The notes beneath the pieces are model-generated. The model was not told the DNA's origin. It saw nothing but the letters and a program-made list of their open reading frames with translations, and made no database searches. From assembly GCA_025463055.1 (NCBI GenBank), contig JAOAPV010000001.1, positions 1 through 33,833 of the forward strand: a stretch of 33,833 nt of DNA. Direction: 5' to 3'. This document shows positions 17,452 to 33,833 of this stretch, in pieces; position 1 is the first letter of the stretch; each line of letters opens with the position of its first letter. Made by a program: the position numbers and the translations under genes. Source of the stretch: Candidatus Acidiferrum typicum. Lineage in GTDB: Bacteria; Acidobacteriota; Terriglobia; Acidiferrales; UBA7541.

Positions 17452-17513
17452 ACATCCAGATCTCTCGGAATCAGACGGGCGAATTTACGTTATGCGAATT
17501 TGTGGGGAAAAAA

Positions 17514-18433: not shown

Positions 18434-18865
18434 AGCGTGTCCCAAGTAGCGGAATATACACCTATATATTAATGATAGACGAAGCTGAGTGCCCTTTCGG
18501 GAGGGGGAGTGAGTCTCGAGATGATAACTACCATGTTTTCAGTGAGTTACATCGGACGAGAAGATAACGCAAGACATTCAGGAAGAACACCGGGAAGGGC
18601 GCGAAATCGGCTCTTCAGGATGATTTTCGGCCCCCAAGGCTGATCATCCATGATCCTGCAATATGGTCTTTTTCAGGAATATCTTATGCACTGTGATTAC
18701 AAAGTATTTGCAGTTCTTTGCGGGGAACCGATATTCCGACGATGTGATGCTCTCGCAACTCGGCGAGTTTCGGCTTAATGCGCCTGAAAATCTCATCGGC
18801 CATTTATGCTCTTCATCGCCGTAACTCTTCCCAACATCTGTATCGGGTAGTTTACAGCACCGTGA
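18434..18865. other. Intergenic, nothing recognised
   Basis: About 430 nt between a plus gene and the 3' end of a minus gene. It is relatively AT-rich (for example around 18460-18480) with no convincing open frame, RNA or repeat. A transcription terminator for one or both neighbours may lie here but could not be pinned down by eye. Confidence 0.45.
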
Positions 18866-19543: not shown

Positions 19544-20241
19544 CTTTAATCTCCCATCTCCCAAAGGATTAGATACCAAATCCCTGATATCGACTCCCAA
19601 TCTGCTGTTATGCCACGGCGGTTTGACCACTTGCCATCTCGCCGTCACCCGATGACCGAACAATCTTCAGTGATCGGCGCAAATCTCGCAATTCCACGCA
19701 AGACAAGCAGCTCTCCTTGTTCGGGTGACATCGTTCTGGGTTCTCCTATCTATTTCATTTTCTCGCAAACGCCCCCTCTCCATCGCAATCCGAATACGAC
19801 GACGTTACTGGATCTGCGTAAAAGGGCGGGCAGCAGGAAGAGCGCGAAGCATGAGCAAATCGCGACAAATCCCTGTTTTCGAATCGGAGTCGGGGACATG
19901 CTGGACGAAGGAGTTTGGGCGGAAATCAGGATTGGCTGTTACCTCCCGAATCGGCTGAACTCGCTGCCTCCCTCTGGTAAGCGCACCAATATTCGAATCG
20001 TTATCTGGCCGCAACGTCCGCCCAAGAACGGATCGTCACAGCACTAGGCGTCATCGAAAAAAGATCCAAGTGATGTCGGCGGGCCTTCAGATCGCCCAAA
20101 AAAGGAGAATGCAAGAAGACTGCCCCCCGCAGCGAATGACTTCCCGAAAGCCCGGTTCTTGGCAAATTCGATTCGCAGTTGATACCGACAGGGTTTCTCG
20201 TGAAACTGCCTTGCCTCGTACGCGGGCCAGCCGAGGAGCTG
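19544..20241. other. Long stretch without a supported gene
   Basis: About 700 nt upstream of the molybdopterin gene and downstream of the MOSC remnant. Open frames of up to about 145 codons occur on the plus strand but are arginine/proline/serine-rich, lack ribosome sites and match nothing recognisable. The region probably holds the promoter of the minus-strand oxidoreductase and decayed sequence. Confidence 0.5.
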
Positions 20242-20535
20242 CTAGATGTGAGCTGGCCGCAGCCTGACGGAATCACCACGGCGAACCGTACCACCTTCCA
20301 ACACAGAGGCGTAAATGCCCACGTTAGCCCGGTTATGCCGGGCTGCTGCGCAGGATACCTGTATCCTGCGGGAGGTCGCCCTGAGGGAGTGTTGTCATTA
20401 CGCAACGAGGACAGGGACCTGTGACGCTCAGGCGAACGGAATTCTCGATCGCGAGCACTTGCCGATCCAGGCATTCTCCCCGAAATCCCTCTCGCCGTAC
20501 GGGGTCTCCACCACGATGCGGCTCAAGATTGAGGC
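20242..20535 (-). pseudogene. MOSC-domain protein, frameshifted and 5'-truncated
   Basis: Three minus-strand frames together spell the C-terminal half of a MOSC (molybdenum cofactor sulfurase C-terminal) protein. First comes RIVVETPYGERDFGENAWIG, then, after a shift near 20462, QVLAIENSVRLSVTGPCPRC and MTTLPQGDLPQDTGILR. After a second shift near 20350 comes AAARHNRANVGIYASV followed by GGTVRRGDSVRL and a TAG at 20242. The GPCPRC cysteine motif and the D-P-G-ILRT segment are typical of the family. The N-terminal half is absent. Two independent shifts plus truncation make a pseudogene more likely than sequencing error. Confidence 0.78.
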
Positions 20536-20882
20536 GGTTTTCGAGCATTGTGCGGAGCAGTCCGAATACTACGATGACTACAACGGGGCAAACATTGCAC
20601 TGATTATCTTCGCCGTGTCCCACGCTGGCTTTGTTGTCCGCGTCTAAATTTTCACTCCCTGCGCCGATTTTTTCTTCAGCCGTTTGCCGCCCTATTGCAA
20701 CCATCTCGCGCCTGAGAGATGGCCAAGCGAACACCTGATTGTTCTTGACCCCAATAACAACCATGCTTTCGGCACGCTGACGGAAGGCTGGCTCTTGCTT
20801 TTCTTACTTTAAGACCTTTCAAGGCCCGATTCCTTCTCGAATCAGTCAGAGAAGTGCGAGCAGCCAGCAGGGACAGAACACA
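20536..20882. other. Intergenic, possible remnant
   Basis: A minus frame stays open through 20764 and joins one frame of the MOSC remnant, but its sequence does not look like the MOSC N-terminal domain. No ribosome site or motif was found. The AGGGACAG-like site just before 20883 serves the next plus gene. Confidence 0.4.
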
Positions 20883-21080
20883 ATGAAGACTCTCTTCTAT
20901 ATTTTAAGAAAATACGGCAATGGAACATTTCGGTGGGTCGAAGCAGTAAATGACGTTGACACTGCCGAGGCTCGCATGCGGCAATTATGTGCGGAATCGC
21001 AAGACGAGTTCGTTGTTTTTAGAAATATCGACTTGCGTGTAGTGGCCATGGCGAGCGAAAACACCTATAAGCGGCTTTAG
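20883..21080 (+). CDS. Small conserved-type protein, unknown function
   Basis: A 65-aa protein: FYILRKYGNGTFRWVEAVND, a short helix (AEARMRQLCAES) and a beta strand (DEFVVFRNIDLRVV). The alternation suggests a compact alpha/beta fold. An AGGGACAG-like site precedes ATG 20883. A weakly similar layout (F-x-x-VEA, basic helix, E-x-x-IF) is seen in the minus-strand gene at 27526-27891, so the two may be distant paralogues. No known domain was recognised. Confidence 0.62.
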   Translation: MKTLFYILRKYGNGTFRWVEAVNDVDTAEARMRQLCAESQDEFVVFRNIDLRVVAMASENTYKRL

Positions 21081-21217
21081 GCGGATAAAGGGTGCGTGTG
21101 TAGCGAAGAAGTTGGTGAAGAAGTTCTAAAGGGGTGGGCCGGCTAGCCTATGGGCATTATTCAAAGGATTAAAGATTTCTTGAGGGCTTCTGGGAAACCA
21201 TGGCCGCCGATCGCGAA

Positions 21218-21430
21218 ATGACGACCCCACGACGGTTTCGATGGCCAGTGTCGGAACACAACATGCGTGATGTTGCCTTGCTTGCATTAGCGGCCCTCCT
21301 GTTTTTGGCATGGGGACTAAGCTATTTGGTATTTCGGGTCGCTGGAGTTCTAATTCATCTCCTGCTGGTTCTTGCGCTCGTATCTATGATGTTTCACGCC
21401 TTCAGCGGAAAACGTACCGCTCCGCGATAG
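21218..21430 (+). CDS. Small membrane protein (lmo0937/DUF5670-like)
   Basis: A 70-aa protein with two membrane segments, DVALLALAALLFLAWGLSYLV and GVLIHLLLVLALVSMMFHAF, ending in a basic tail, SGKRTAPR. The IHLLLV-AL pattern and short C-terminal basic end fit the lmo0937-type family of tiny inner-membrane proteins, often stress-linked. The start is uncertain: ATG 21200, 21218 and 21263 are all in frame. Family members are usually about 50 aa, which favours 21263. ATG 21218 overlaps the stop of a 23-codon frame (21150-21221) as ATGA, which could be a leader peptide, but that is weak. The C-terminal two thirds of the call is the secure part. Confidence 0.65.
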   Translation: MTTPRRFRWPVSEHNMRDVALLALAALLFLAWGLSYLVFRVAGVLIHLLLVLALVSMMFHAFSGKRTAPR

Positions 21431-21994
21431 TTAGGCTATCGTTCTCTGTGAAATCGCTGTCGAGTTCCCAACAGACACCACCTTGTAGTTGTGCTACATC
21501 AAATTCAGTTTCCCGGCCTAAAGGAACCAGATTCCAGAAGTTGATATTTCTCGGATAGAGACGGACGGAAGTCTTCGCTGGATTGGAACCTCGCACACTC
21601 TTGAGTCCGCGGTTACCTGCGTCGAGATTCTGGCGGCTTCTTGATGCGGCGATGATCGTGACTCATGACGAAAAAGCAATAGAGCACGCTGAAGTGATCA
21701 TCGGAACAGTGAATAAGTCTATCGAGGCAATCGCTTCCCGGTGATTACGGAAAAAGGTAAGCCAGCGTGTGGCCGGCTCCGAACCTTGACGTGTCCGTTT
21801 CGTCAAGAGGCGAACCAGCGTTCGAGGCACAGGCCGATAAATCGAAAGATGGCTCGGAGTCATAACAGAACAGTGGCGGGAGGGCGGCTATGTCACTGAT
21901 TTCAAAGTCGGCCAGAGTTTTGGCGAACCACAGGCGAAAAACGGAATGACATCGCGGGATTCCCCGCCAGGAAGTACTTGCAAAGACAAGTTCT
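21431..21994. other. Intergenic, nothing secure
   Basis: About 560 nt between converging genes. One short plus frame near 21640-21740 (AAMIVTHDEKAIEHAEVIIG) has a protein-like look and could be a gene remnant, but it is too short to name. No terminator or RNA was identified. Confidence 0.4.
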
Positions 21995-22546
21995 CTAAGC
22001 GGTCCTGCGCCTCTTGTGCGGACGGTGTTTGATTGTTTTGTGTTTCGTTTCAGGAGCCTTCGCTTGTGATTTTACGGCTAAATCCGAGTTAAACGTATCG
22101 CCGACCATTTTCCAAGTACCATCCGACTGCTTCTTCCAAACCGCCATATCCTTACCTTGATCGGTAATCGGTTTGCCGTTGGCCCCGTCGAAGGCCGTCT
22201 GATAAGTGTAGATCGTATAAGCGAGATCGCCCGACCGAGCGACTTCCAATTTATTGATTTGCCAATCGATGGTGAACCCTGGGTTGCTCATCAGCTTGGC
22301 CCATTCTGCCCTGATCGCGGCCTTGCCGTGAACCAGCGGTGAGTTGGGTGGGAGCCAGGAGGCATCATCCGCGTAATTGGCAACCACACCGTTAACATCA
22401 TTCGCCTGCGCACCTTTAAGTGTCGCGGCATCTGCCTCTCGGATAGCACGCTCGTCTTGAGCACGCGTATCTATTGGTTCCTTTTGGCAACTGACGCAGC
22501 AACAGGCCGCGAGTGTCAGTATCAGCGCGGTTCGATAATTGGGCAT
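21995..22546 (-). CDS. SnoaL-like / DUF4440 lipoprotein
   Basis: A 183-aa secreted protein with a lipoprotein signal (ALILTLAACCCVSC) and an NTF2-like domain. The core shows RAQDERAIREADAATLKGA, VNGVVANYADDASWLPPNSP, VHGKAAIRAEWAKLM and YTYQTAFDGANGKPITDQGK with DGTWKMVGDTFNSDL. This is the pattern of the SnoaL/ketosteroid-isomerase-like DUF4440 group. The C-terminal 25 residues are a basic, lysine/arginine-rich tail. GAGGGAG precedes ATG 22546. These proteins have a small-molecule pocket, but their roles are mostly unknown. It stands alone between plus-strand neighbours. Confidence 0.85.
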   Translation of the reverse strand: MPNYRTALILTLAACCCVSCQKEPIDTRAQDERAIREADAATLKGAQANDVNGVVANYADDASWLPPNSPLVHGKAAIRAEWAKLMSNPGFTIDWQINKLEVARSGDLAYTIYTYQTAFDGANGKPITDQGKDMAVWKKQSDGTWKMVGDTFNSDLAVKSQAKAPETKHKTIKHRPHKRRRTA

Positions 22547-22743
22547 GAGACTCCCTCTGAAGTGAACATCGGCAAGGGTACACCTAGGACCAAAGTGAGG
22601 TCTAGATAGTCATGCCTTCGGCTTTGCTCCATAGCTGCCGATCCGCAGGGCTATTAGAGCGAATCGTAAATGAATTACGCGAGTCTCCTCGCCATGACCT
22701 TAACACGCTGCCCTGGACGTGAGAGCATAGGCCCGGAGGATTC

Positions 22744-23031
22744 ATGGATATCTTGGTGGCATTGAGGCAAGAAGAAGCGAAGTGGGAGAAGCAGGCGGAG
22801 GAGGCTCGACAACAATTGGAGACTGTGCGTGCAGCGATGAAGCTCTTCCGTGGCGAGACTGGCAAACGGATCAGCGGTTTGGGTCGCAGTGGCAAAGCGA
22901 CTGGCAGTAGGAGTGCTAAAACGACTAGTGGGAAGAAACGAGTGATGTCTGCCGCTGCGAGAGCGAGGATTTCGAAGGCATCAAAAGAGCGGTGGGCAAA
23001 GTTTAGAGCAGCGAAGGCTAAGGGTAAATAA
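22744..23031 (+). CDS. Small basic coiled-coil protein
   Basis: A 95-aa protein. Residues 1-37 form a likely coiled coil (LRQEEAKWEKQAEEARQQLE). The rest is a lysine/arginine/serine/alanine-rich tail ending RARISKASKERWAKFRAAKA, a motif seen in many small Acidobacteria proteins and in histone-like tails. GGAGG lies just before ATG 22744. DNA or RNA binding is plausible from the charge but is inference. Confidence 0.78.
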   Translation: MDILVALRQEEAKWEKQAEEARQQLETVRAAMKLFRGETGKRISGLGRSGKATGSRSAKTTSGKKRVMSAAARARISKASKERWAKFRAAKAKGK

Positions 23032-23171
23032 GGCCGCTAATTTTGCACAGCGCGTCCACAGATAACGGTGCCACAGTTACGACAATTCAACAACGGAACG
23101 GTTCCTTCATGGACGTTTGACCGCTCCCAATGTCGTCCGGTCCCCATTGGAAGGTTCCCCGGCGCGGCTAG

Positions 23172-23711
23172 TCAGGCCCATTTATCTAGCTTTAGCTTGA
23201 GGGCGTCCGCGATTGTTATGGCGTACATCGCAAATGCGGCCATCGCCACGATCTCTATAATTTCGCTGTCATTGATTCCATGTCGCTTCAGGGCATCGTA
23301 ATCCGCATCGGTCAAACTCTTTGGATCAGTTCCAGCCTTCACGGAGAAACGTATAATTTCCCGTGTGCGATCTGGGCGAAGGGCGTTGAGATTGTTGACC
23401 AAATTCTTACACGTCTCTACGTCTGCCTTTAGAATCCTGCAAAATGCGAGATGTGCAGCTTCGCAGTATTCACATTTCTTGGCTGCGGAAATGGCGACAA
23501 ATATCATTTCTTTAAGGACTTCGGATATCGAACCGCGTGTGCTGATATTGCGGTATACGCCCCAAGTTCCTTCCAGAACAGCGGGACTGTTCGCCAAGGT
23601 TGTGAAGAAGTTCGGAACAAAGCGAAGATGCTTTACATCCAAGATTTCTTTATAGGTGCGATTAGTTGCGTCGGAAGCAGTTTCCTCCTGGATGATGCTA
23701 AATTTGGCCAT
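23172..23711 (-). CDS. AhpD-like carboxymuconolactone decarboxylase family protein
   Basis: A 179-aa all-helical protein of the AhpD/CMD superfamily, peroxidase-related subgroup. The redox motif is readable as C80-EY-C83 with H87 (KKCEYCEAAH), and a further C91 follows. This CxxCxxxH arrangement supports a thiol peroxidase or disulfide-reductase role against peroxides. FVPNFFTTLANSPAVLEGTW and IIEIVAMAAFAMYAITIADAL are typical framing helices. AGGAGG lies upstream of ATG 23711. It appears monocistronic. The electron donor is unknown. Confidence 0.92.
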   Translation of the reverse strand: MAKFSIIQEETASDATNRTYKEILDVKHLRFVPNFFTTLANSPAVLEGTWGVYRNISTRGSISEVLKEMIFVAISAAKKCEYCEAAHLAFCRILKADVETCKNLVNNLNALRPDRTREIIRFSVKAGTDPKSLTDADYDALKRHGINDSEIIEIVAMAAFAMYAITIADALKLKLDKWA

Positions 23712-23946
23712 CGAAGTACCTCCTCAGAATGCCGAAGCGGTTCGCATGCGGATACAAACCCGGCCACAGATTTCGGCAATAGGGAATTGTTATGGACGTT
23801 GCTCTCGATGCAGTTACGACGTCAAGTAAAATACATTGAACGGCCAGTGTAGGGTGTCGAACAAAAGGTGCCCACGGCTGAAGGGTCACAAGGTCTGTAA
23901 GCTTTCGCATCGAAGCGAGCGACCGTTAGAGCCAGAGCCAACGAAT

Positions 23947-24174
23947 TCAACTTAAACGTCTTCCAAGCGCATCATGTCCGACTAGGCTTCCCGTCCAGTC
24001 GCAATCGTTCGAAGGGCATTCAAGTTTAAAGATTTTTTCATTCAATTCTTCGGCTCGGATTGGCACAGGCGAGGAAACAGAACTAGTTATCCACCAATCG
24101 CACTTTGGACATTTGAACAGCAACGTGTATGAATATTCGCTCAGCGGATCGTCTTGAGATTTTTCCCTGTCCAC
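23947..24174 (-). CDS. Small zinc-ribbon-like protein
   Basis: A 75-aa protein with two cysteine pairs, CPKCDWW and CPSNDC, spaced about 30 residues apart, which fits a zinc ribbon. The start is taken as GTG 24174, 6 nt after the stop of the upstream minus gene, so the two are probably co-transcribed. The AGGAG there touches the start codon, so the exact start is uncertain. No function can be named. Confidence 0.6.
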   Translation of the reverse strand: MDREKSQDDPLSEYSYTLLFKCPKCDWWITSSVSSPVPIRAEELNEKIFKLECPSNDCDWTGSLVGHDALGRRLS

Positions 24175-24180
24175 TCCTGC

Positions 24181-24453
24181 TTATGCCGCCTCAGCAGTTT
24201 GGCGGCTTTCAGCATCGGACCCGTGCTGTTTCACCATTTTATTGTAAACGCCCATCAACAAAAATGGCGCTGCCCACTGTCCGACAAACAGAGAAGCATC
24301 TTTCTTACCTGCCATTCTCAGTATCGCTGAAGCGGCCATTGAACCCAGTGCCGCGCCCAAATAAGCCGAGGACGGAATTTGCGAAGTCTGGGATTCAATC
24401 ATCGCAGTTACATTGTCCTCGCGTGCTCCGGCTACCTTGCTCTCGGTTTTCAT
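24181..24453 (-). CDS. Small protein with hydrophobic core, unknown function
   Basis: A 90-aa protein starting at ATG 24453 after AGGAGG. The middle has two weakly hydrophobic segments, SSAYLGAALGSMAASAILRM and ASLFVGQWAAPFLLMGVYNKM, which may be membrane-associated helices with GxxxA/SxxxS-type packing. The ends are polar. It is followed 6 nt later by the zinc-ribbon gene. No family was named. Confidence 0.75.
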   Translation of the reverse strand: MKTESKVAGAREDNVTAMIESQTSQIPSSAYLGAALGSMAASAILRMAGKKDASLFVGQWAAPFLLMGVYNKMVKQHGSDAESRQTAEAA

Positions 24454-24594
24454 ATATTCCTCCTGATTGTGAAATTATTTTCGAATGACTTTTCGCTCTT
24501 AGATGGTCACGTTGTTCACTTTCCGGACGTACCCCGCACCTCGGGAGGAAGCGGAGCGTCAATTAAGATTGGCGTTCCGCCTTCACTCAGGATC

Positions 24595-24831
24595 TTAGAC
24601 CGACCCGACTTTGACGCCCCGTGACTCGAATCTCTGCGCGGTTTCGCTCTTGCGACGAGCGAGTCCGGCCAAACCGGCAAGACCCAGCAAGCCAAGCCAG
24701 GACCAATTGCGGCGCGACTCACCGTCGTAGCGCGTTGCGGTGTTATCCCTGCTTTGCGGCTCTACGCTTTGCGCGGACGCAAGACAGCTTGAACTCAAAA
24801 CCAAGGCGAATACTACTAAGAACTTCTTCAT
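24595..24831 (-). CDS. Secreted small protein with WGxxGxxG-type C-terminal motif
   Basis: A 78-aa protein with a signal peptide (MKKFLVVFALVLSSSCLASAQ) and a short polar middle. Its C-terminal segment, NWSWLGLLGLAGLAGLARRKSE, contains the WLGLLGLAGLAGL repeat followed by arginines. This matches the WGxxGxxG-CTERM type of membrane-tethering tail. GGAGGG precedes ATG 24831; the frame is open further upstream but that part is not protein-like. Probably anchored in the inner membrane with most of its mature part outside. Function unknown. Confidence 0.8.
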   Translation of the reverse strand: MKKFLVVFALVLSSSCLASAQSVEPQSRDNTATRYDGESRRNWSWLGLLGLAGLAGLARRKSETAQRFESRGVKVGSV

Positions 24832-24956
24832 AAACCCTCCTTGACCATCCTGCGAGATAGCGCGGCCAATCACCATACCCAGAAGCAGGGGGATTGAATT
24901 TGAAGCGCGGTAGATACGTCTACGCGTGGCACCAATGTAGGGAGAAGCACGCGAGA

Positions 24957-25067
24957 TCACCAGCAGCCGATCAAGAGTAGAATCCCGATTGCGCCGAGGT
25001 GTTCGATACCGGCGACAGAACTAAAGAAAACGTGAATCCAACTAACAGTAGGAAAATGATGTTTCAT
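24957..25067 (-). CDS. Tiny hydrophobic peptide, possible membrane protein
   Basis: A 36-aa frame from ATG 25067 with an AGGAA-like site upstream. The sequence SWIHVFFSSVAGIEHLGAIG followed by ILLLIGCW would form one membrane helix. It lies between two supported minus genes on the same strand. It is too short to be certain of. Confidence 0.35.
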   Translation of the reverse strand: MKHHFPTVSWIHVFFSSVAGIEHLGAIGILLLIGCW

Positions 25068-25150
25068 AGAGTTTCCTGGAGAACTCCAGAATGCTTCAGA
25101 AAGCGGGAGAGGGAGGACACCGCCCTCTCCCACTTCCGTGCGTAGCTGAT

Positions 25151-26026
25151 TCATGCGCCGCGCTTGCGGGTCTTCGGTGTGTCGCCGCTGCCAGTCTCCT
25201 CAACATTCACGTTCTCGTCCTTGTCTACGCGAAGCTCTTCGCGTCGAACTTTCTCGGATACCTCCCGAGTGTCCTCGCGTGTTCGTTTGCCCACTTCGAC
25301 TTCTTCACGAACAGTCGATTTCTTTTCGACATTCACTCGCTCTTCGCTGAGCGGGACCCGAATTTCGGACTCCGCGCCAATTTCACCCGCTGGTGCGCCC
25401 TCTCCAGCGGGGTGCCGTTCTATGACGAGTTCTTCGCGGGAGGTGGGGACCTGAACATTCTGTGTTTCAGTCACTACTTCCTTATGCACGCGCACCTCGC
25501 CCAATGGAACACGCTCCTTGTGTACGCGGAGGACTTCTCCAAGCAGTTGTATTCTTCGCCGCTCTCCACTGGTTGACTGCGCCGATGTAGCTGGGTAGTT
25601 GAATGTCGTCGCATCGCGGCCAACATCGCCGCCGTTCTGTTCAATGACCTGCTCGGCCTCGCGCTCACGTCCGGGGGTGCTGACCGTTACGAGTGCGCCT
25701 TCGTCCCCCTGCGCCAGTTGGTGTTCAAAATACCGCGCCCGATCTTTGGTAACGCCTGCGTATTCCAAAGAACCGCGAAAGTCGTCAGGGTTATAGTCGT
25801 AGTCGCTCCTTCCTCCAAAGAAATGTACGACCTTGTCCCAAAGTGACTCCGCCTTTTCTCCGGTCGTACTTTCTCCAGTCGTGCTTGCGCCCGTGGCGTC
25901 GGAATGGGTAGCCATACCGAGCTGCTCCGAACGGAATCCTGCACTCGTGAGTTCCTCTATCGTTTTTTCTGCCTGTGATCGCGTCTCGAAGTAACCGATA
26001 ACGGTGTTTGTGCCCGAAGTTGCCAT
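25151..26026 (-). CDS. YsnF/AvaK-family stress protein (DUF2382)
   Basis: A 291-aa cytoplasmic protein. Residues 1-130 form a general-stress-protein 17M/YflT-like domain (VIGYFETRSQAEKTIEELTSAGF, later DRARYFEHQLAQGDEGALVTV). The C-terminal half is a DUF2382 domain with alternating charged strands: RIQLLGEVLRVHKERVPLGE, VRVHKEVVTETQNVQVP, REELVIERHPA, EIRVPLSEERVNVEK. It ends in a charged, repeat-like helix. ATG 26026 was chosen because the domain begins there and an AGAGAGG lies upstream; the longer frame to 26287 is not protein-like. Members are linked to general stress, but no biochemical activity is established. Confidence 0.9.
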   Translation of the reverse strand: MATSGTNTVIGYFETRSQAEKTIEELTSAGFRSEQLGMATHSDATGASTTGESTTGEKAESLWDKVVHFFGGRSDYDYNPDDFRGSLEYAGVTKDRARYFEHQLAQGDEGALVTVSTPGREREAEQVIEQNGGDVGRDATTFNYPATSAQSTSGERRRIQLLGEVLRVHKERVPLGEVRVHKEVVTETQNVQVPTSREELVIERHPAGEGAPAGEIGAESEIRVPLSEERVNVEKKSTVREEVEVGKRTREDTREVSEKVRREELRVDKDENVNVEETGSGDTPKTRKRGA

Positions 26027-26426
26027 AATAAATTTGCCTCTCTTTTGTTTTGTTGAGGGCCTCGCGCCATCGCAGAGGCAGTTGCTAGGGCGACCGACAA
26101 CGTCAAAAGCTGACGAAGCCCTCTCTCCAACGCTCAAAACTATGCACCTTCTAAGTACCTTCCCATCCAGCTGAATGTGTACCGCGGTGAGGAAAATCAT
26201 GTGAGATACGTTGGTTGAGTGCGACACATAGCGAGATGAGATTGGGAGGTACGAGTCGAGCAGACTGGGACCGATTCGAATTGCCAAGGGCTACTTTTGG
26301 TCAAGCCGTATCCCGAGATCGGGCTATCATCTCGGAACTGTGGATCACGAATCGGTTTCGAATGCTGATTACGATTCGTCGGAATCCGGACCTGTAAAGT
26401 CAGGTCCGGAGTCCAGACATCTCACA
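26027..26426. other. Intergenic with one strong hairpin
   Basis: About 400 nt between two minus-strand genes. Apart from the inverted repeat at 26385-26410 no gene or RNA was recognised. It should carry the promoter of the YsnF-like gene. Confidence 0.5.
26385..26410. terminator. Perfect 10-bp inverted repeat, possible terminator
   Basis: Arms tccggacctg (26385-26394) and caggtccgga (26401-26410) flank a 6-nt loop. It lies 16 nt beyond the stop of the minus-strand coiled-coil gene, where a terminator would be expected. There is no T-run on either strand, so it may instead be a processing or protein-binding site. Confidence 0.45.
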
Positions 26427-26936
26427 TCATTTCACCGCATCGCTCTCCGCCTGGGCCCGTTGGGCTGCGGCACGGGCCTTTTCTTCGTCTTCCTTGGCTT
26501 TCTTGAGGTCTGCTTGCTTGCGCTTGGTATTATCCTGAGCCTTGGCCCATTTTTCCTTAGCCTCCGCCGCTTTTTTCTCGGTAATAGCATCCTGCTTGAT
26601 CTCTTCGCTCGATTGGTTCGCGCTAGCTTTAGCTGACGACGGCACCGGTTTCTTCAGCTTTTCGCGTGCATCCTGCGCCTCGCGTGCCGCAATGCGCGCC
26701 TGCTCTTCCTGCTGTCTGGCCTTGGCGAGATCCGCTTGTTTGTTCTTTGTATTTTCTTGTGCATTGGTCCACTTTTCCTTTGCCTCCGCCGCCTTCTTTT
26801 CCGCCGCAGCCTTCTTCTTCATCTGATCGGTCGATTCCTGCGCCGCGCTGCCAGTGTTCTGAGCTGGAGTTGGAACATTTATCGCTAGGCTGAGCCCAAG
26901 TAGCGTGATTGGGGTGAGCATCCATCTTTTTTCCAT
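26427..26936 (-). CDS. Exported coiled-coil protein with internal duplication
   Basis: A 169-aa protein with a signal peptide (LTPITLLGLSLAINVPTPAQ) and then an almost continuous, alanine/lysine/glutamate-rich coiled coil. A unit of about 50 residues is present twice. The first copy has EKKAAEAKEKWTNAQENTKN and the second EKKAAEAKEKWAKAQDNTKR, each followed by KQADL-x-KA-x-x-x-EE-x-AR. GAGGTG precedes ATG 26936. The coding strand is confirmed by the conserved protein repeat. It may be a periplasmic structural or spacer protein; no enzyme motif is present. Confidence 0.82.
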   Translation of the reverse strand: MEKRWMLTPITLLGLSLAINVPTPAQNTGSAAQESTDQMKKKAAAEKKAAEAKEKWTNAQENTKNKQADLAKARQQEEQARIAAREAQDAREKLKKPVPSSAKASANQSSEEIKQDAITEKKAAEAKEKWAKAQDNTKRKQADLKKAKEDEEKARAAAQRAQAESDAVK

Positions 26937-27262
26937 TTAGCACCTCATTCGGCATGATCGTTTTTCAGCCACGGACGCTAGGGAAGGAATCATGCTAAAT
27001 CCTCCCCACAGCAGTTGGTTGGAAACTGGATGAGTCGCTTCCGTTGGCGTTTTCAGACGAGGGTCAGGGGCGGCCTTGGTGTTTAGAAGGACCATCGTCA
27101 TGGAGTATTTAGAAGGAACTAGGAGGATAGCCACCTGATTAAGGTTCGCATGGATTTATGAAGCTGTGAATACCGTCCTAACTGGAGTGGGTCTCAGTTT
27201 GGTTCCTTACGCAGCTTTCAACCACTTAGGAATGTAACAAGTCGCACCCCGCGGCGATGTAC
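26937..27262. other. Intergenic, nothing recognised
   Basis: About 325 nt between two minus-strand genes, with no supported open frame. A short direct repeat (tagaagga at about 27085 and again about 25 nt on) is visible. The promoter of the coiled-coil gene should be here. Confidence 0.4.
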
Positions 27263-27463
27263 CTATCTTGGAGCATCGTCGTCAACGCGACGGAGCAGCA
27301 GCTTTTCGCCGACAATGAATCCGAGGATGGCGACTACAGTCCACCCAGCACCGAATTTCCAGCTAAGAGAGAAGGCAACGGCGATGAGCAACAAATTCCC
27401 GACGACCCAAAAAGCCAAGAGGCGCGACCGTTTCCGCGTATACCACTCAGAGCACTGGTCCAT
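27263..27463 (-). CDS. Small two-helix membrane protein
   Basis: A 66-aa protein with a basic N-terminus (YTRKRSR) and two membrane helices (LLAFWVVGNLLLIAVAFSLSW and AGWTVVAILGFIVGEKLLL) ending in an acidic/basic tail (RRVDDDAPR). AGGA lies 8 nt before ATG 27463. Positive-inside charge distribution puts both ends in the cytoplasm. No family was recognised. Confidence 0.65.
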   Translation of the reverse strand: MDQCSEWYTRKRSRLLAFWVVGNLLLIAVAFSLSWKFGAGWTVVAILGFIVGEKLLLRRVDDDAPR

Positions 27464-27494
27464 CCGGTAGTTCCTATCAATTCAAAACTGCTCC

Positions 27495-27701
27495 GTGAAT
27501 CCCCGCGAATTGTGTACATGCACCGTCACGAGCCGCTCCGTTGCTTTCGCAAATCCTTGCAAACCCGCTGTATCCGACGCCTTAAAAAACGAGCAAATCT
27601 TAAAATGTCCTCGTTGCGACCGAACCTGTGTAAGCCACCAAACACAATTGCAACGATGGAAGGAAATACGTGTCGAGCTTCACTTGGGACGGTTCCTATG
27701 A
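27495..27701 (+). pseudogene. Degraded zinc-ribbon protein copy
   Basis: The frame contains KPAVSDALKNEQILKCPRCD, nearly the same as KPAVSDDLKNELTVKCPRCE in the intact gene at 29540-29782. After that the match is lost: the expected YRLGYSDNEWNKV is replaced by VSHQTQLQRWKEI. There is no good start codon near the homologous N-terminus (only a distant GTG 27495), and it overlaps a minus-strand frame. It is best read as a decayed paralogue. Confidence 0.6.
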
Positions 27702-27891
27702 TTTGGTTTATCGTTCTCGGGTCAAAGAAGAACTTCAGTCCGGTCATTTCATTGAAAATGATGTATTCGCGGGGCCACAGCTTTGAAAAGGTGATAGCTC
27801 GGTCTTTTGCAGCTTCAAATGTTTCCGCTGCCTCCACGAAGTGGAAGCTACTGTCATCTCGGCGGGTAAAAAGTGAAAAAGGTTTCTGCAT
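27526..27891 (-). CDS. Hypothetical protein, possibly a distant paralogue of the 20883 gene
   Basis: A 121-aa frame from ATG 27891. The N-terminal 55 residues (SLFTRRDDSSFHFVEAAETF, a basic helix, then REYIIFNEMTGLKFF) resemble in layout the 65-aa protein at 20883. The C-terminal half is arginine-rich and lies antisense to the zinc-ribbon remnant, so it may not be genuine protein. The ribosome site is weak. The N-terminal part is the more credible portion. Confidence 0.45.
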   Translation of the reverse strand: MQKPFSLFTRRDDSSFHFVEAAETFEAAKDRAITFSKLWPREYIIFNEMTGLKFFFDPRTINQIIGTVPSEARHVFPSIVAIVFGGLHRFGRNEDILRFARFLRRRIQRVCKDLRKQRSGS

Positions 27892-28110
27892 TGAATACAA
27901 TCCCCATCTACATCTACGTAACAAAACCGCCAAACACTATCTTTGGCCTTCAATCGAATGTAAATACCGGGAAATCCGCAGTCACGTGCGGTGTAAACGC
28001 GTAACCAAAACTAGAGCGGGTTAAAGCAGGCTTCTCTGAAAGCTCACGATTTTAACGGCGGCGACCGCCCACCGGAAGCCTTGCATCCAATGGACTAGGG
28101 GAGACTTCCT

Positions 28111-28296
28111 ATGTCACCAAATGCGGGGTACTGGGAAAAAGAACTCAAGGAAGCAACCGACAGTCTCAAAAAACTGGAACAAGAGCAGGATCAGATGAAT
28201 CCTCTTGTGTACGAGGATTTGCGACAAAAGCTGGAAGTGGAAATTAAAGTATTGGCGGCACAACTAGAATTGGCGCACCAAAAAGAAGCCAACTAG
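28111..28296 (+). CDS. Small coiled-coil protein
   Basis: A 61-aa, highly charged helical protein (YWEKELKEATDSLKKLEQEQ, then LRQKLEVEIKVLAAQLELAH) beginning at ATG 28111 with GGGGAGA upstream. Leucine spacing supports a coiled coil, likely self-associating. No enzyme motif is present. It precedes the response-regulator gene on the same strand with about 200 nt between. Confidence 0.72.
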   Translation: MSPNAGYWEKELKEATDSLKKLEQEQDQMNPLVYEDLRQKLEVEIKVLAAQLELAHQKEAN

Positions 28297-28503
28297 CCCC
28301 ATTCCCAGGGTCTGGTGCTACGGTTCTTCGGTGCCCAAAGATAAACCCCTACGCCCAAAATGCGGGAAAAGGTGTATTCCTTGTGTGAATCGAGAATATT
28401 AAAAACGTAAACAGAGGCAGTTAGGTCTGGAAAGTCAGATAGAGCGCCTCCCTTTCGACGGGAGAGTAATCGGCCCACGCTAGTGACCGATTCAGGAGCT
28501 TCT

Positions 28504-28878
28504 ATGACAAGGATTCTAATTGCGGACGACCGCGAATCGATGCGGATAGCTATCCGGGCTTTAATTAGGATGCGCCCGGATTGGGAGATTTGCGGTGAAG
28601 CAAATGATGGTCGTGAGGTCGTGGCGAAAGCCGCGGAACTGCAGCCCGATCTGGTCGTTTTAGATTTCAAGATGCCCGTCGCGAACGGAATCCAGGCGGG
28701 CAGTGAGATTTTTCGCTCTTCGCCTACGCTTCCGGTTGTGATGTATACCTTGTACAGAACTCCAGAAATCGAAGCAGCCGCCAAACGTGTAGGTATTCGG
28801 CAAGTAATTGCGAAGGAAGACGGCGGGAAGTACCTGCTCAGTGCGATTGAGACCGAACTACTCGCGAATAATTCCTGA
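28504..28878 (+). CDS. Single-domain response regulator (REC)
   Basis: A 124-aa CheY-like receiver with no output domain. The acidic pocket is D8-D9 in ILIADDRES, the phospho-acceptor is D54 in VVLDFKMP, the switch threonine is T82 in VVMYTLY, and the conserved lysine is K104 in VIAKEDGG. ATG 28504 follows AGGAG by 6 nt. GTG 28483 is in frame but less likely. No histidine kinase is nearby, so it probably takes phosphate from an unlinked kinase or phosphorelay. The KEDGG-KYL ending resembles NarL-type receivers without the helix-turn-helix part. Confidence 0.92.
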   Translation: MTRILIADDRESMRIAIRALIRMRPDWEICGEANDGREVVAKAAELQPDLVVLDFKMPVANGIQAGSEIFRSSPTLPVVMYTLYRTPEIEAAAKRVGIRQVIAKEDGGKYLLSAIETELLANNS

Positions 28879-28894
28879 GTGCCTCAATAGGCTT

Positions 28895-29170
28895 GCTTAG
28901 AAGCATGTCATTAGAAAACGGGCATCTTTCCGGCACTGTGAGCGCCTCAGCGATCTGCGGGAATCGTTTGTTGAAGTTTTTGTGGTTCCGTGAGTACAAA
29001 ATAGTTTCGCGGTCTCTAACGCCGATAGCGCGATAGCCGTCTAGCTTCGCTTCATACGTCCATTGCGGCCCCTCGGGGAGATTTGAGACCAGGGCACACT
29101 CCATAGGCTCGATGAATTCCGGCTTCCGGTGCGGCAAGAATCGAAGCTCACGTTTGCGGCGCCGAGGCAT
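28895..29170 (-). pseudogene. ATP-dependent DNA ligase N-terminal fragment
   Basis: From ATG 29170 the frame gives FIEPMECALVSNLPEGPQW, then TYEAKLDGYRAIGV with the nucleotidyl-lysine motif KLDG (K42), then SRNHKNFNKRFPQIAEAL. These are the first steps of the adenylation domain of LigD-like ATP-dependent ligases. Homology stops at about residue 83-92. The expected DGE motif III and the remaining two thirds of the enzyme are absent. The frame then runs into the 3' end of the converging response-regulator gene and stops at 28838. It cannot be a complete ligase, so it is called a truncated remnant. Confidence 0.7.
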
Positions 29171-29259
29171 GTATTGTGAATATCAGAATAAGACGCGAGC
29201 GTGAAGCTCACGATGGAATTACTGGGGAAGATTATTGGGCCGTTTGACGTAATGGGATC

Positions 29260-29469
29260 TCAGGACACGTATCCGACAACCAAGTCGTAATCGTCGGGAT
29301 TCTTGCTCGCCGGATCTCGACCCGGCAGAAGGCGCAACTCGACGTAGACGTCTCCCGGTTCGACGGTCGCGCCTGCGAGGAGTTCCTCTTTCATTGCCCT
29401 TTTCTTGACGTCCAGTGCTTTCTCCATGCGTCGAAGTTCATCCATTTTCTCTTTAAGATCGTCGTCCAT
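29260..29469 (-). CDS. Small charged protein, unknown function
   Basis: A 69-aa protein from ATG 29469 with GGGGAG about 8 nt upstream. It has an N-terminal charged helix (LKEKMDELRRMEKALDVKKR) and then a beta-rich part (VEPGDVYVELRLLPGRDP, YDLVVGYVS). It is divergent from the zinc-ribbon gene at 29540, with only 70 nt between the starts, so the two may share a control region. No family was recognised. Confidence 0.68.
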   Translation of the reverse strand: MDDDLKEKMDELRRMEKALDVKKRAMKEELLAGATVEPGDVYVELRLLPGRDPASKNPDDYDLVVGYVS

Positions 29470-29539
29470 TGTTACGACTCCCCTTCGGTGTGATGATACA
29501 CTGTCCTCCCGCTTCCTCTCGATCATCCACAGTAGTGAA

Positions 29540-29782
29540 ATGGCCGCGACCCTCACAAAAATCATCAACGACAAACCCGCGGTATCTGACGATCTCAAAA
29601 ACGAGCTGACCGTGAAGTGCCCGCGCTGCGAGCAAACCTATCGGCTCGGGTATTCAGACAATGAATGGAACAAAGTCAAGGACTGGCTGAGACTCGCGGA
29701 GACAGCAATCCGCACAGACCATGCCGGCCGCCATGAGGCGGGAACTATTGGGATCGATTGGCGGGGCATACGGAGACGTTGA
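29540..29782 (+). CDS. Small zinc-ribbon protein
   Basis: An 80-aa protein from ATG 29540. LTKIINDKPAVSDDLKNEL leads into VKCPRCEQTYRLGYSDNEW, which has a single CPRC pair, and then a helical C-terminus with two histidines (DHAGRHEAG) that could complete a metal site. A decayed copy lies at 27495-27701. The frame is open upstream to 29405, but that part is antisense to the neighbouring minus gene. No strong ribosome site was seen. Function unknown. Confidence 0.65.
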   Translation: MAATLTKIINDKPAVSDDLKNELTVKCPRCEQTYRLGYSDNEWNKVKDWLRLAETAIRTDHAGRHEAGTIGIDWRGIRRR

Positions 29783-29786
29783 CGAC

Positions 29787-30287
29787 CTATGCGCCCAACT
29801 TATGGCGGGGAAGGTAATCGATTGCCTTCACTTCAAAATTAGCAGCGCGAAGGCGAAACGCGAAGCTCAACATGTGAGCAATTCCGCAGATCATTAGGCC
29901 ACTATCAAAAACGCTGCCTTGTATCGTTTGCGACCAAAAACTTTCGCGCGATTCATGTGCTTCAGTTGATTGCCAATTCGCGAATCCAGCGTCAGGTGGA
30001 TTGCCAATCATGTAGGGTTGATTGCTCGGAGTGGAAATGTTCAAGTCTTTTCGTCTCAATATAGGCGGATCGATATCGAGATAGCGACCAGAACCCAGAA
30101 TCTCATTCGCGAAACGGTCGGCAGTGGTAGGACCGAAGCCGCTTGCCTCCTCAAAAACAAAATTGACTGCCTCGCTTTCAAATAGATCGCCAAGGAGGAT
30201 GCCATAAAGTGGATCGCTTACGTTCCCTAAGCGTTTTTCTGAACCTTGCAGTTCATGGTACGTCCCAAGAATGGTGATTCTCCTCAC
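29787..30287 (-). CDS. Hypothetical protein with GTYHELQ and CGIAHM motifs
   Basis: A 166-aa protein from GTG 30287; the frame is also open to a TTG at 30386. It begins with a buried strand, RRITILGTYHELQG, and contains VNFVFEEASGFGPTTADRF and LDIDPP. It ends with GLMICGIAHMLSFAFRLRAANFEVKA. The opening GT-x-H, an internal acidic EE and a closing CG-x-AH suggest an alpha/beta enzyme-like fold in which histidines and acidic residues meet. The layout recalls TraB/ChaN-type proteins, but this is only a resemblance. No ribosome site settles the start. It ends very close to the converging zinc-ribbon gene. Confidence 0.62.
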   Translation of the reverse strand: MRRITILGTYHELQGSEKRLGNVSDPLYGILLGDLFESEAVNFVFEEASGFGPTTADRFANEILGSGRYLDIDPPILRRKDLNISTPSNQPYMIGNPPDAGFANWQSTEAHESRESFWSQTIQGSVFDSGLMICGIAHMLSFAFRLRAANFEVKAIDYLPRHKLGA

Positions 30288-30583
30288 AGGGCGCGATTCT
30301 AGCGCATGTAAGTAATTCGGAAATAATAAGCTTTGTAACGACTTGCCTTGCTCGATATGTAATTGTGTTATAGCCTCGCCGCGCAAGTGGTTCGCAGCGC
30401 AAGGTGGAGTCCGGTTTAAGTATACGAATGTTGTTCCGGATTACTGATTTGAGCGAATAGCAGGATTGACCGAGTACAACAAAACTACCTAATTGCACGA
30501 AGCATTTGCGTTTGCGAGTGACTCCTGCAATGGCGACGGGACCGACGGAGAGGATGCGGGACTCGAGGGAGTTGGTGAACTGA

Positions 30584-31090
30584 ATGAACACCGATGCGAA
30601 GTACGGGTGTGTTTTAGAATGCAAGAAGCAGAGTCCAACATCGTACTTCGTTCTGGCTCGAGCTGAGTCGCAAGAAGAATGTGCTGGTCAACTAGGGTGG
30701 TCCACGGATAGGTGGCCTTTAACCGTTCTATGCGACGAGTGTTTTGGGCTGTTTGAATATTCGGAACAAGACATCCAGAAGGTGTCTGTTGATAGCATGG
30801 ACCAAGAGACACTCCAGCCCAAACGCATTTGGAATATAGAAGTTCAATGCGCCCAAGAAAATGGCGGGTTTCCAATAAGAATGCATTTCCAAGCGGGTAT
30901 CGGTTCAGTGAGAGCTGTCACGGCAGAGGTCGCGAGTTCGAGTCTCGTCGTCCCCGCCATTCATTCCAAAAGAGTTGAACGAAGTTCACTGCAACCAACC
31001 AGGGTGCAAAAGGGCACGTTTTTGCACCCTTTTTGCACCCCTTTTCGTCAATTAGAGCCGTTTTCGCGAGCTCGGTTTTCACCGGTTTGA
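30584..31090 (+). CDS. Hypothetical protein whose 3' end runs through a tRNA fragment
   Basis: From ATG 30584 the first ~105 residues look like a real small protein: YGCVLECKKQSPTSYFVLAR, CAGQLGWSTDRWPLTVLCDE with several cysteines, FEYSEQDIQKV and KRIWNIEVQCAQENGGFPIR. The last ~60 residues are translated from the tRNA-Asp 3' fragment (30913-30959) and the hairpin after it, so that tail is probably not the original C-terminus. The gene appears cut or rejoined at the attachment site. The ribosome site is weak (GGTGAAC). Function unknown. Confidence 0.55.
   Translation: MNTDAKYGCVLECKKQSPTSYFVLARAESQEECAGQLGWSTDRWPLTVLCDECFGLFEYSEQDIQKVSVDSMDQETLQPKRIWNIEVQCAQENGGFPIRMHFQAGIGSVRAVTAEVASSSLVVPAIHSKRVERSSLQPTRVQKGTFLHPFCTPFRQLEPFSRARFSPV
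30913..30959 (+). other. tRNA-Asp(GTC) 3' fragment, putative integrase attachment site
   Basis: The sequence contains an anticodon loop, ctGTCAc (anticodon GTC at 30917-30919), a variable region, a T arm (gcgag / ttcgagt / ctcgt) and a 3' acceptor half, cgtcccc, then g and an encoded CCA ending at 30959. The 5' half is missing: no ggggacg acceptor strand, D arm or matching anticodon-stem strand lies upstream. Such 3' halves are the usual product of tyrosine-recombinase integration, and an integrase gene lies 140 nt away. Confidence 0.8.
31002..31041 (+). terminator. Intrinsic terminator with a doubled 3' arm
   Basis: gggtgcaaa (31002-31010) pairs with tttgcaccc (31021-31029), giving a 9-bp stem followed by TTTTT on the plus strand. 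A second copy of the 3' arm, tttgcacccc (31032-31041), follows at once with TTTT. It lies 42 nt after the tRNA fragment and beyond the 3' end of the minus-strand integrase gene. It may have terminated the original tRNA transcript. Confidence 0.65.
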
Positions 31091-31096
31091 CCACTC

Positions 31097-32248
31097 TTAC
31101 GCGAGTGCGCTGGAGTTCGTTTCAGAAGCGAAGACCAGCGCAAGGACCGCTGCTTGCGCAGCGTGTTTTGCTGGCGAGATTGCCTGCGTGTAAACATCCA
31201 GCGTGGACCGTAACGAGGAATGCCGCAGCAACTCCTGCATCACTTTGAACTCGGTGCCGACACTTCGCAGTAGAGTCGAGTACGTGTGTCGAAATGTATA
31301 CCATCCGAATTGTTTCTCAATCCCGACGCGCTGCGCCACGGGACGGATATGCTTGCGCAAAATTGCCTGGCCCCAGATTGGTTTCGGACCACGGTGCCGT
31401 CCGCTCGCGAAAACCCAGTCGTCGGATTTAGTGTACCGGGAGCCTTCTTTCCATTTCGCGAGGGCCTCCAAAACTGTTGGATGAACCGGTACGGGCTTTT
31501 GCGATGCTTCAGTCTTGCAAGGACCCACCACTCCGTACACGATGGAGCGCGTGACGTTCATTGTGCCTTGAGCAAAGTTGATGTCTCCCCACTTCAATCC
31601 GAACAGCTCGCTCTGTCGAAGCCCGGTGGAGGCCGCAAGGAGCACTAGCGTTCGCTCACGTAAACCCAGGCCATGTATGAGCGCCTTTATTTCAGCGGGT
31701 GTCAGCACATTTGGCGTAGTGCGCCGCTTCGCACCCTGTCGAACCAAACCGATCGGGTTGCGGTCAAACAGTTCATGACGGCAAGCATGATTGAAGAGAA
31801 CCGAGAGAATGCCTCGGATTTTCGCACAGCTGCTCTTCGCCAGGGGCAAACTGCGAAGCCATAACTCTACTTCTGTCGTTCTTACTTCCGAAAGACGCAC
31901 ACTGCCCCAACATGGGATGACCCATCTGTTCAAGTACGCTTTGTACAATTTCTTTGTGGAATAGCTTCGCCAGCTATTGTCCTTAGTTAGTTCGCGCTGA
32001 ACAAAGTGATCGCACACTTCCGCAATAGTCATCGGGAGATGGCATCGCTGAAAAACATTCGCATTGATTTCTCTTAATAGTCCCGTCACTACTCTGCGGG
32101 CAGAGTCCGCATCCGTGTATTGGCAGACCGTGCCGATGACCCTCTTGCGGTAGATGCGTTTCCCATAGGGCCCTCTTTCCGCCCATCGAAATTGCCAAAC
32201 ATCTGGACCGCGCTTCCGACCACTCCTGATTAAGCTCCCCTGTTGCAT
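31097..32248 (-). CDS. Tyrosine site-specific recombinase (integrase)
   Basis: A 383-aa phage-type integrase. An N-terminal DNA-binding part (WQFRWAERGPYGKRIYRKR) and a SAM-like core-binding domain (MTIAEVCDHFVQREL, KLYKAYLNRWVIPCWG) precede the catalytic domain. Catalytic residues are the first Arg in STGLRQSEL, the beta-hairpin Lys in CKTEASQKPVP, TFRHTYSTLL with the second Arg, the His in LLRHSSLRSTLDVYTQA and the nucleophilic Tyr of DVYTQ. The box-II motif, normally H-x-x-R, reads Y-T-F-R. This substitution is known in some active family members. Its 3' end faces a tRNA-Asp fragment 140 nt away, the likely attachment site. ATG 32248 has AGGAGG-like bases upstream. Confidence 0.93.
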   Translation of the reverse strand: MQQGSLIRSGRKRGPDVWQFRWAERGPYGKRIYRKRVIGTVCQYTDADSARRVVTGLLREINANVFQRCHLPMTIAEVCDHFVQRELTKDNSWRSYSTKKLYKAYLNRWVIPCWGSVRLSEVRTTEVELWLRSLPLAKSSCAKIRGILSVLFNHACRHELFDRNPIGLVRQGAKRRTTPNVLTPAEIKALIHGLGLRERTLVLLAASTGLRQSELFGLKWGDINFAQGTMNVTRSIVYGVVGPCKTEASQKPVPVHPTVLEALAKWKEGSRYTKSDDWVFASGRHRGPKPIWGQAILRKHIRPVAQRVGIEKQFGWYTFRHTYSTLLRSVGTEFKVMQELLRHSSLRSTLDVYTQAISPAKHAAQAAVLALVFASETNSSALA

Positions 32249-32378
32249 TTGCTTCCTCCTCTATCGCAGTTGCGACGTGGAGGAATTCTTACGCAATGAG
32301 GCACAAAATTAGATCCTCTAGGCGAGGCCCGAGTGAATTGCTTTGCGGCGGCAACGTTAATTCCTCCTCTCAGGCAAC

Positions 32379-33260
32379 TCAGGAATTGATTCCGCTCTTT
32401 GCGATATGCAATCGGCTGTCGAAGCGCCCATCTTCAAAAACCGTTGAAACGGTCAGATGTCGCCACTTGTCGGCCTCGGCAGCGCGCGCGGCTTCTGCTT
32501 GCTGCACCCGTTTTTCCGCATCGACACCGAGGATCAGCCGTACCGGCACCTCGTCGCTATTTGCCAGTTGCAGAATTACGTCCGCGATCTTTCGCGGATC
32601 GCTTTCCCAACGCCCTTCGAGTCCTCGCTACATCTTCAGGAACGAACCGACCGTGGCCTCATACTCTGGCAGCAAGTCCGGCGCATTCTTAACGGCGCGC
32701 CGTGCCCAGTTTGTCCGAATACCGCCCGGATCCTGTGTGCAGACCTTTACTCCGAAGGGCGCGACTTCCATCGCCAGCGAGTCGCTGAAACCGCCCACCG
32801 CCCACTTGGCCGCGTGATACGGCGTATTGCCAGGAACCGCGTGACGGCCACCGACCGAAGACACCTGAAAGATGTGACCGCGCTTCTGCTTACGCATCAC
32901 GGGCACAGCGGCGCGCGTGGTGTACACCACGCCGTAAAAGCATGTGTCCACGATCGCCTGGAAGTCCTCCGCACTCATTTGCTCGAACGGTGCAAACTGT
33001 CCATAGCCTGCGTTATTCACCAGAACGTCCAGCCGCCCGAATGTATCCACTGCCAACTGCACGGCAGCTTTTGCGGCGGCTTCGTCGCGCACTTCCAGTT
33101 TCACGGGCTTCACCCGCTCGCCATATCGCGCCACCAGAGGAGCCAGTTCTTCCGTCCGGCGCGCCCCAGCGACCACGCTGTAACCTGTGGCCAGCGCCGC
33201 CTCGGCGATGTCCCTCCCCAACCCGTTTCCGCTTCCCGTAATCAACCAGACCTTAGACAT
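32379..33260 (-). pseudogene. Short-chain dehydrogenase/reductase interrupted by an in-frame amber codon
   Basis: From ATG 33260, with GGAGG upstream, the frame gives a classical SDR. It has the cofactor loop VWLITGSGNGLG, LDVLVNNAGYG, the catalytic Ser in IFQVSSVGGR, and YHAAK with Tyr and Lys, followed by DPGGIRTNW. At 32628-32630 there is a TAG after VGSFLKM. In the same frame the protein then goes on as GLEGRWESDPRKIADVILQL and VRLILGVDAEKRV to a TGA at 32379, just as full-length relatives of about 280-290 aa do. So a single base change breaks an otherwise intact gene. All catalytic residues lie before the stop, but the truncated form loses the C-terminal substrate lid. Confidence 0.85.
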
Positions 33261-33386
33261 GAAGATCCTCCGTTCTCCTTTTTAGATAGAAGTATGGGCG
33301 CTTAAACTCGGCCAGCTCGCCTATCGAGCGAGTCTATTGTGAGTACTTACTCATTTATGAGATGCAACGACTCGTCCCTTCCCCGC

Positions 33387-33833
33387 TCACGCCGGTGATA
33401 GGCGAATGATGGGTTTGATTGTGCCCCCTTTTTCACTGTCTTGCGCAGCTTGATTGATTTGATCGAGGCTGTAAAACTTCGTCAGTTTCTCGAACGGGAA
33501 GCGCCCCTGCGCGTTGAGTTCGATGAGTTGCGGGATAAAAATGTCGGGAACGCTCTCGCCCTCAAGAATGCCGCGTATCCCCTTACCAGATATCATCAGG
33601 TTGTTCACGTCAAAGCTCACCTCTGTGCCTAGTGGCTCTGCTCCGACGATGCCGCAGGTGCCGAGAGATCCGAGTGCTTCTATCGCCTGATGCAACGCTC
33701 TGGCATCCCCGGAGGCCTCTAGCGAATAATCGACTCCGCCACCAGTAATATCTCGGATCGCCTCAACTGGATTTGTCTGTTTACTGTTAATAGCATGCGT
33801 CGCGCCCAGTTCCTTTGCCATTTCCAGACGCGA
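33387..33833 (-). CDS. Zinc-type NAD(P)-dependent alcohol dehydrogenase (5' end beyond window)
   Basis: The C-terminal ~148 residues of a medium-chain dehydrogenase. The frame is open through the right edge, so the catalytic N-terminal domain is not seen. Visible parts belong to the Rossmann domain: MAKELGATHAINSKQTNPVE, GGGVDYSLEASGDARAL, LGTCGIVGAEPLGTEVSFD and the closing LDQINQAAQDSEKGGTIKPI. This pattern fits aryl-alcohol dehydrogenase-like enzymes, which oxidise aromatic or allylic alcohols. It lies upstream of the amber-interrupted SDR on the same strand, 126 nt away, so the two oxidoreductases may have been co-expressed. Confidence 0.88.
   Translation of the reverse strand, partial: SRLEMAKELGATHAINSKQTNPVEAIRDITGGGVDYSLEASGDARALHQAIEALGSLGTCGIVGAEPLGTEVSFDVNNLMISGKGIRGILEGESVPDIFIPQLIELNAQGRFPFEKLTKFYSLDQINQAAQDSEKGGTIKPIIRLSPA

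Follow-up and report, generated by a model that had tools for sequence, protein, structure and literature searches.

A tRNA-Asp half beside a tyrosine integrase in Candidatus Acidiferrum typicum, a probable attachment site between tandem integrative elements

The tRNA-Asp half

The window, i.e. the whole stretch of 33,833 nt that was analysed, carries the 3' half of a tRNA-Asp(GTC) gene (tRNA positions 33-77) on the plus strand at 30915-30959, and we consider this 45-nt half to be, with good probability, the attachment site between tandem integrative elements at a tRNA-Asp gene. Judged from its sequence and position, it would be common to two neighbouring elements. The half matches the intact gene at G000:C1:19671-19747 exactly, opens with the anticodon loop CTGTCAC, ends in CCA and is not preceded by a 5' half. 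The original prediction of a tRNA-Asp 3' half beside an integrase is thus confirmed with the integrase 137 bp to the right, and of the 47 nt that it claimed for the half, 45 stand while the extra bases at 30913-30914 mismatch the tRNA. Neither ARAGORN nor Rfam finds a tRNA gene inside the window, which rules out a whole gene and makes 30915-30959 a half. Three copies of the half are present in the 5.33-Mb genome at up to three mismatches against none for a reversed-pattern control, and chance is thereby excluded. The window constitutes the entire contig C112 of a draft genome of 146 contigs (5.33 Mb), and neither end of the presumed array can therefore be read from it.

The integrase

A tyrosine integrase of 383 aa is encoded on the minus strand at 31097-32248 (Pfam Phage_integrase, E=1.5e-22), with its C-terminal end facing the half and its stop codon 137 bp from it. 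The open reading frame is full length and the catalytic residues R211, K245, R320, H343 and Y353 are present, but the histidine of the HxxR motif, found in 92 of the 95 integrases compared, is replaced by Y317 (codon TAT). The enzyme may thus be impaired and its present activity is doubtful. Among PDB entries a XerC-like recombinase is closest in sequence, followed by IntI4. At a threshold of 1e-20 there was no match to the integrase among 50,697 phage records or among 72,556 plasmids, and 12 relatives were found in viral contigs, the best at 41%; an origin from a phage, a phage satellite or a plasmid is unsupported by these searches.

A scan of one genome per species gave 313 integrase relatives, and the best 79 of these 313 loci were kept, all from Acidobacteriota except one labelled Verrucomicrobia. 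Among these best 79, a tRNA match lies within 600 bp after the integrase in 77, comprising 51 intact tRNA genes, 21 clear halves of 44-51 nt and five short or contig-edge matches (L126, L132, L139, L151 and L158); within that distance none was found at the two remaining loci, L150 and L168. The tRNA is antiparallel to the integrase, i.e. tail-to-tail, in 76 of the 77 with L128 as the exception. Isolates such as Granulicella mallensis X5P3, Bryocella elongata DSM 22489 and Silvibacterium bohemicum S15 combine an integrase of this family with an intact tRNA-Asp. A larger set comprised 95 integrase ORFs with a length of 300 aa or more (the 79 loci, further relatives and one paralogue from the same genome, with four duplicate rows). 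Of these, 89 have a tRNA match within 400 bp, and 87 of the 89 are tail-to-tail. The arrangement in the window had been regarded as an unexpected geometry, and it is instead the normal layout of the family.

The integrases cluster by target tRNA on a tree of 91 rows, from which the four duplicates had been dropped and where the labels of L004, L111 and L123, chosen by bit score, were reassigned manually to the tRNA-Asp that lies nearer. The identity of the target tRNA changes 23 times, compared with a mean of 43.5 after shuffling. The window integrase belongs to a supported clade of nine (95/87), all located at tRNA-Asp or its half, and the several long branches of the tree fall outside this clade. 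From its position next to the half, and from that of its clade members, the window integrase is probably specific for tRNA-Asp.

Other tRNA-Asp sites in the genome

The intact tRNA-Asp(GTC) gene on C1, identical to the window half at 45 of 45 nt, is preceded by a tRNA-Val and followed by an integrase of its own and an HTH_17 (excisionase-like) gene. On contig C67 the third copy is a 54-nt half; three of its last 45 nt are mismatched, and it lies beside a broken integrase that is split into several open frames. Identity to the window integrase is 42% for the C1 copy and 37% for the C67 copy, which therefore look like parts of different elements and not like products of a recent duplication. Taken from the sequences, three different elements appear to have used tRNA-Asp in this genome. 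An intact tRNA-Asp with the same 3' half, which the original prediction called for, does exist, but on a contig that is not joined to the window; the prediction also held that it would be refuted if the genome had no further copy of the half, and two others are present (C1 and C67). C1, C112 and C67 are not joined in the assembly, and their physical linkage is presumed. At up to three mismatches this genome yields no half without an integrase, such as might end an array, and a search in it for the chromosomal flank downstream in G028, meant to close the array, gave a 32% match with stops on C140 and no clear orthologue.

Stacked units in related genomes

Tandem units are present on single contigs in relatives. 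On G006:C268 four halves, the first of which is cut by the contig start, and three integrases follow each other in line, and a unit at L094, in another acidobacterium of another species, shares 99.46% identity with the second of these units (11595-15135) across 3,542 nt. This unit has the layout half-integrase-cargo-half, and the alignment begins at tRNA position 33 and goes up to the terminal CCA of the half at the far end, the two copies having different flanks; the L094 copy comes after an intact tRNA-Asp and the G006 copy after the end of another unit. Both unit integrases belong to the clade of the window integrase; the one at L094 is full length, and the one in G006 has a frame break near its end. 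The pair is the best evidence for the origin of the arrangement in the window. With the C1 and C67 sites and the single-contig stacks in relatives, the suggestion that elements stand in tandem at one tRNA is well supported, with the limit that the contigs of this genome are unjoined.

Other tRNAs carry stacks too, since the pattern of a tRNA-Val(TAC) 3' half occurs twice (6592 and 14990) on G004:C10, a contig that also bears tRNA-Asp, and three tRNA-Val(GAC) halves stand in a row at L113. The tRNA-Val(TAC) pattern was meant as a control and matched only 6 of the 36 genomes, being too divergent for this use.

Small units without an integrase

The half sequence, at up to three mismatches, is found in 28 of 36 genomes of the genus with 59 copies, 40 of which are not part of an intact gene when their coordinates are compared with the full-length matches listed. 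Ten contigs with at least two copies among the matches listed gave 15 intervals bounded by halves or by the intact gene; a further one, beginning at a diverged full copy (86%) on G019:C81, is excluded from this count. No match to two integrase queries was found in 11 of the 15, and nine of these 11 are shorter than 2 kb. The unit boundaries in relatives fall exactly at the halves. The integrase-free units of relatives measure 0.8-1.7 kb and contain arr or toxin-antitoxin genes, and they would presumably be moved by the action of an integrase encoded elsewhere.

Unit A (cassette A) of about 0.8 kb lies between tRNA-Asp halves (L072:4641-5439; also L073, L075, L077 and L079) and encodes an Arr-like protein of the rifampin ADP-ribosyltransferase family (Arr-ms, E=1.3e-47). 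It measures 0.84-0.85 kb in three genomes and is extended in two others. Among 399 genomes of the class it is nearly full length (at least 775 of 799 nt) in five, all of the same genus, and a sixth genome has a partial match of 76%. The unit directly follows a half or an intact tRNA-Asp in all five genomes and has four different left neighbours, one being common to G018 and G019. Its copies are 96-99% identical, compared with 88-93% for rpoB among four of the five genomes (G001 gave no rpoB).

Unit B (cassette B) encodes a UPF0175 protein and a second protein that fell into no family and is probably DUF3368-like, the families having been run on the G001 copy only, and it is also present in the source genome on C67. 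Full copies are 88-92% identical and a partial copy in G018 shows 94%. In three pairs of genomes the identities of cassette B and rpoB are 92.3 and 89.5, 88.9 and 85.7, and 89.4 and 86.3% respectively; a difference of only about three points is weak evidence of recent transfer, unlike the case of cassette A. Since unit C opens with the 3' remnant of an integrase gene, units without an integrase may in some cases be deletion derivatives. The four integrase-free units below 2 kb and without arr (L072:5485-6477, L065:15083-16375, L078:5416-6879 and L080:5525-6622) contain cassette B DNA or a PIN-domain gene, and a HigB gene is located beside arr in G010 (L077:16416-16694). Toxin-antitoxin genes are a common cargo of the small tRNA-Asp units in relatives.

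Isolated 5' halves of tRNA-Asp were observed at L081 (G026:C14, 3611-13926), L071 and L083-L086, sometimes several on one contig. They mostly run from position 1 to a point between positions 29 and 40, and several have a common upstream stretch ending AAGTTGTTGATTCCACGG. A Phage_integrase gene in G026 has its end 30 bp upstream of the intact tRNA-Asp, and a 5' half and a partial 5' half follow 8.7 and about 10.2 kb further upstream, respectively. As read from the sequence, this arrangement suggests that further elements, forming a second set, are located 5' of tRNA-Asp.

DNA flanking the half

To the right, the 137-bp spacer between the half and the stop codon of the integrase (30960-31096) is the presumed right attachment arm; conserved columns occur in the flanks to the right of other halves. 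On C67, too, the half is followed directly by the first 13 bases of this spacer, TTCATTCCAAAAG. Beyond the integrase, a short-chain dehydrogenase (32628-33260, minus strand, Pfam adh_short) and a zinc-binding dehydrogenase that is cut by the contig end (33387-33833, minus strand, Pfam ADH_zinc_N for 33387-33821) are the presumed cargo of the element starting at the half. Similarity to G012:C133 begins at 32374, 126 bp upstream of the integrase start, and amounts to 93% around the short-chain dehydrogenase and 96% over 33399-33833; this supports mobile cargo, not a particular element. The contig stops 1.6 kb past the integrase, and the far end of the element lies outside it. For this reason, and in view of the unusual change of His to Tyr, the integrase may also be left from an earlier event, the second alternative of the original prediction.

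To the left, the small-gene region at 19664-30914, which has scattered matches in relatives only, would be the far part of the neighbouring element if the tandem reading is right. Just left of this region lies a gene for a molybdopterin oxidoreductase (18866-19663). Of the 35 other genomes of the genus at least 23 have a match to it, and the DNA on the left does not therefore have to belong to an element; in the window the gene is without the neighbours shared in G020, G021 and G024. When 19.8 kb of the window (14000-33833) were searched against 36 genomes no empty site was found, the matches being scattered. A positional arm motif is supported at 18 of 29 dissimilar half flanks and does not fit the left flank of the window half (p=0.36), for which reason it is not used as evidence for the window. 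With a junction that has no arm motif and a gene matched this widely, the suggestion that the left small-gene region is mobile was not borne out.

A few further features were observed on this side of the half. The stretch at 26414-27516 has a second copy, 88-90% identical, on C60 of the same genome, and those at 21643-21937 and 22931-23028 contain short dispersed repeats of about 100-160 bp that occur in several contigs and relatives. The run at 1488-17451 includes glycosyltransferase, sugar-transferase, hexapeptide and formyltransferase genes and looks like a surface polysaccharide cluster.

Proposed mechanism and alternative explanations

If the half is an attachment site between tandem elements, the circle formed by an element should carry a left arm, the 7-nt anticodon-loop core CTGTCAC, a 3' half and the adjoining integrase gene; the circular intermediates and the position of strand cleavage are presumed. 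The integrase would recombine the site on the circle with the core of the intact tRNA-Asp, or of any 3' half in the array. Recombination would restore the gene or half on the left and displace the old 3' half to the right end of the element, and an element would therefore start with the tRNA or a half followed by the integrase, and end with a half. Within a stack, each integrase should thus be separated from the preceding element by a half. The window integrase may have such an activity itself.

An integrase may also have inserted its element at a core-like chromosomal sequence, a secondary site, in which case the half came with the attP of the element and the DNA to the left is not mobile. 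The left flank without the arm motif and the widely matched gene to the left of the half are in line with this, and so is a junction in G006, where a copy of cassette B, whose similarity ends about 54 bp before the usual end, immediately precedes the half next to an integrase of the same clade; the same junction indicates that junctions in this clade need not look canonical. We nevertheless regard insertion at a secondary site as unlikely, because tRNA-Asp or its half is the location of all nine clade members, the unit in G006 is bounded by a half on either side, which such an insertion would not produce, and the genome has two further tRNA-Asp sites with integrases of the family. A misjoin of the assembly at the repeated 45-nt sequence, so that the left and right sides are not true neighbours, is very improbable. 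Contigs of relatives do break in tRNA-Asp sequence (G006:C268 starts and G006:C256 ends there), but the adjacency of half and integrase recurs in many independent assemblies and only the left neighbour is therefore in doubt.

It is quite possible, even if we lean against it, that the half and the integrase are remains of an old array that no longer recombines, which is compatible with a site between tandem elements and differs from it only on present activity. The change of His317 to Tyr in the window integrase would fit such a decay, as would the broken integrase on C67, the integrase stubs beside tRNA-Asp copies or halves in the relatives L081, L074 and L088, and a 110-aa ORF in the left region that matches part of a DNA ligase domain and looks like a gene fragment. 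Against this, the window integrase is full length with its other catalytic residues intact, and the nearby cargo is 93-96% identical to that of another species, suggesting recent cargo movement. An attachment site between tandem elements remains our preferred explanation.

Comparison with known systems

Islands in tandem at a tRNA and cassettes bounded by tRNA sequence have both been described before, and the stacking of mobile elements at one tRNA gene is an established route by which bacteria gather genes. Integron cassette arrays consist of small units, including resistance genes, that are moved by site-specific tyrosine recombinases. Acinetobacter dif modules are likewise described as small units, including resistance and toxin-antitoxin genes, that are moved by site-specific tyrosine recombinases; the site here is half a tRNA gene instead of attC in integrons or dif in those modules, and some of the units here contain the recombinase gene, unlike integron arrays and dif modules.

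In the Islander catalogue (PMC4383910) islands that target tDNA with tyrosine integrases restore the tRNA and displace a 3' fragment, anticodon-centred sites are common (2083 of 3919 islands), and tandem arrays are recognised (Tandems of at least two, 125, and of at least three, 4). These traits are also those of the arrays described here, but the catalogue rejects candidates below 2 kb or without an integrase, and the small units of these relatives would therefore not be listed. The tandem ssrA islands of Dehalococcoides (PMC3146451) form an array of direct repeats of the 3' end of the RNA gene as is the case here, with a serine recombinase and the tmRNA gene in place of a tyrosine integrase and tRNA-Asp; 16 of them have an integration module and 15 do not, the latter perhaps being cis-mobilizable. 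Additive flexible genomic islands at tRNAs are described for Actinomarinales (PMC7771536) and Methylophilaceae (PMC10872708, with island sizes from 330 bp), where direct repeats of part of the tRNA mark the inserted cassettes or islands as they do here. As a difference, the integrase family, the exact unit boundaries and the near-identical units in different species are documented here. A search of the literature for such arrays in Acidobacteriota, judged by titles and abstract openings with incomplete coverage, found none.

Implications

On a tentative and rather doubtful note, tRNA-Asp might serve in this acidobacterial genus as a two-sided, integron-like gene-capture hub, where one integrase family stacks 3'-half units downstream, many of them integrase-free cassettes of one or two genes with arr or toxin-antitoxin functions that would move in trans between species, and where a second tyrosine integrase stacks 5'-half units upstream, with the crossover of both in one common anticodon loop. 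The precisely bounded 3.5-kb unit that is present in two species could be tested directly. For the window, the apparent oddity is settled, since a stack of elements seen from within shows just such a 3' tRNA half next to an integrase, and a 3' half that starts in the anticodon loop and stands tail-to-tail with an integrase of this family is a marker for gene-capture sites in the poorly studied soil Acidobacteriota.
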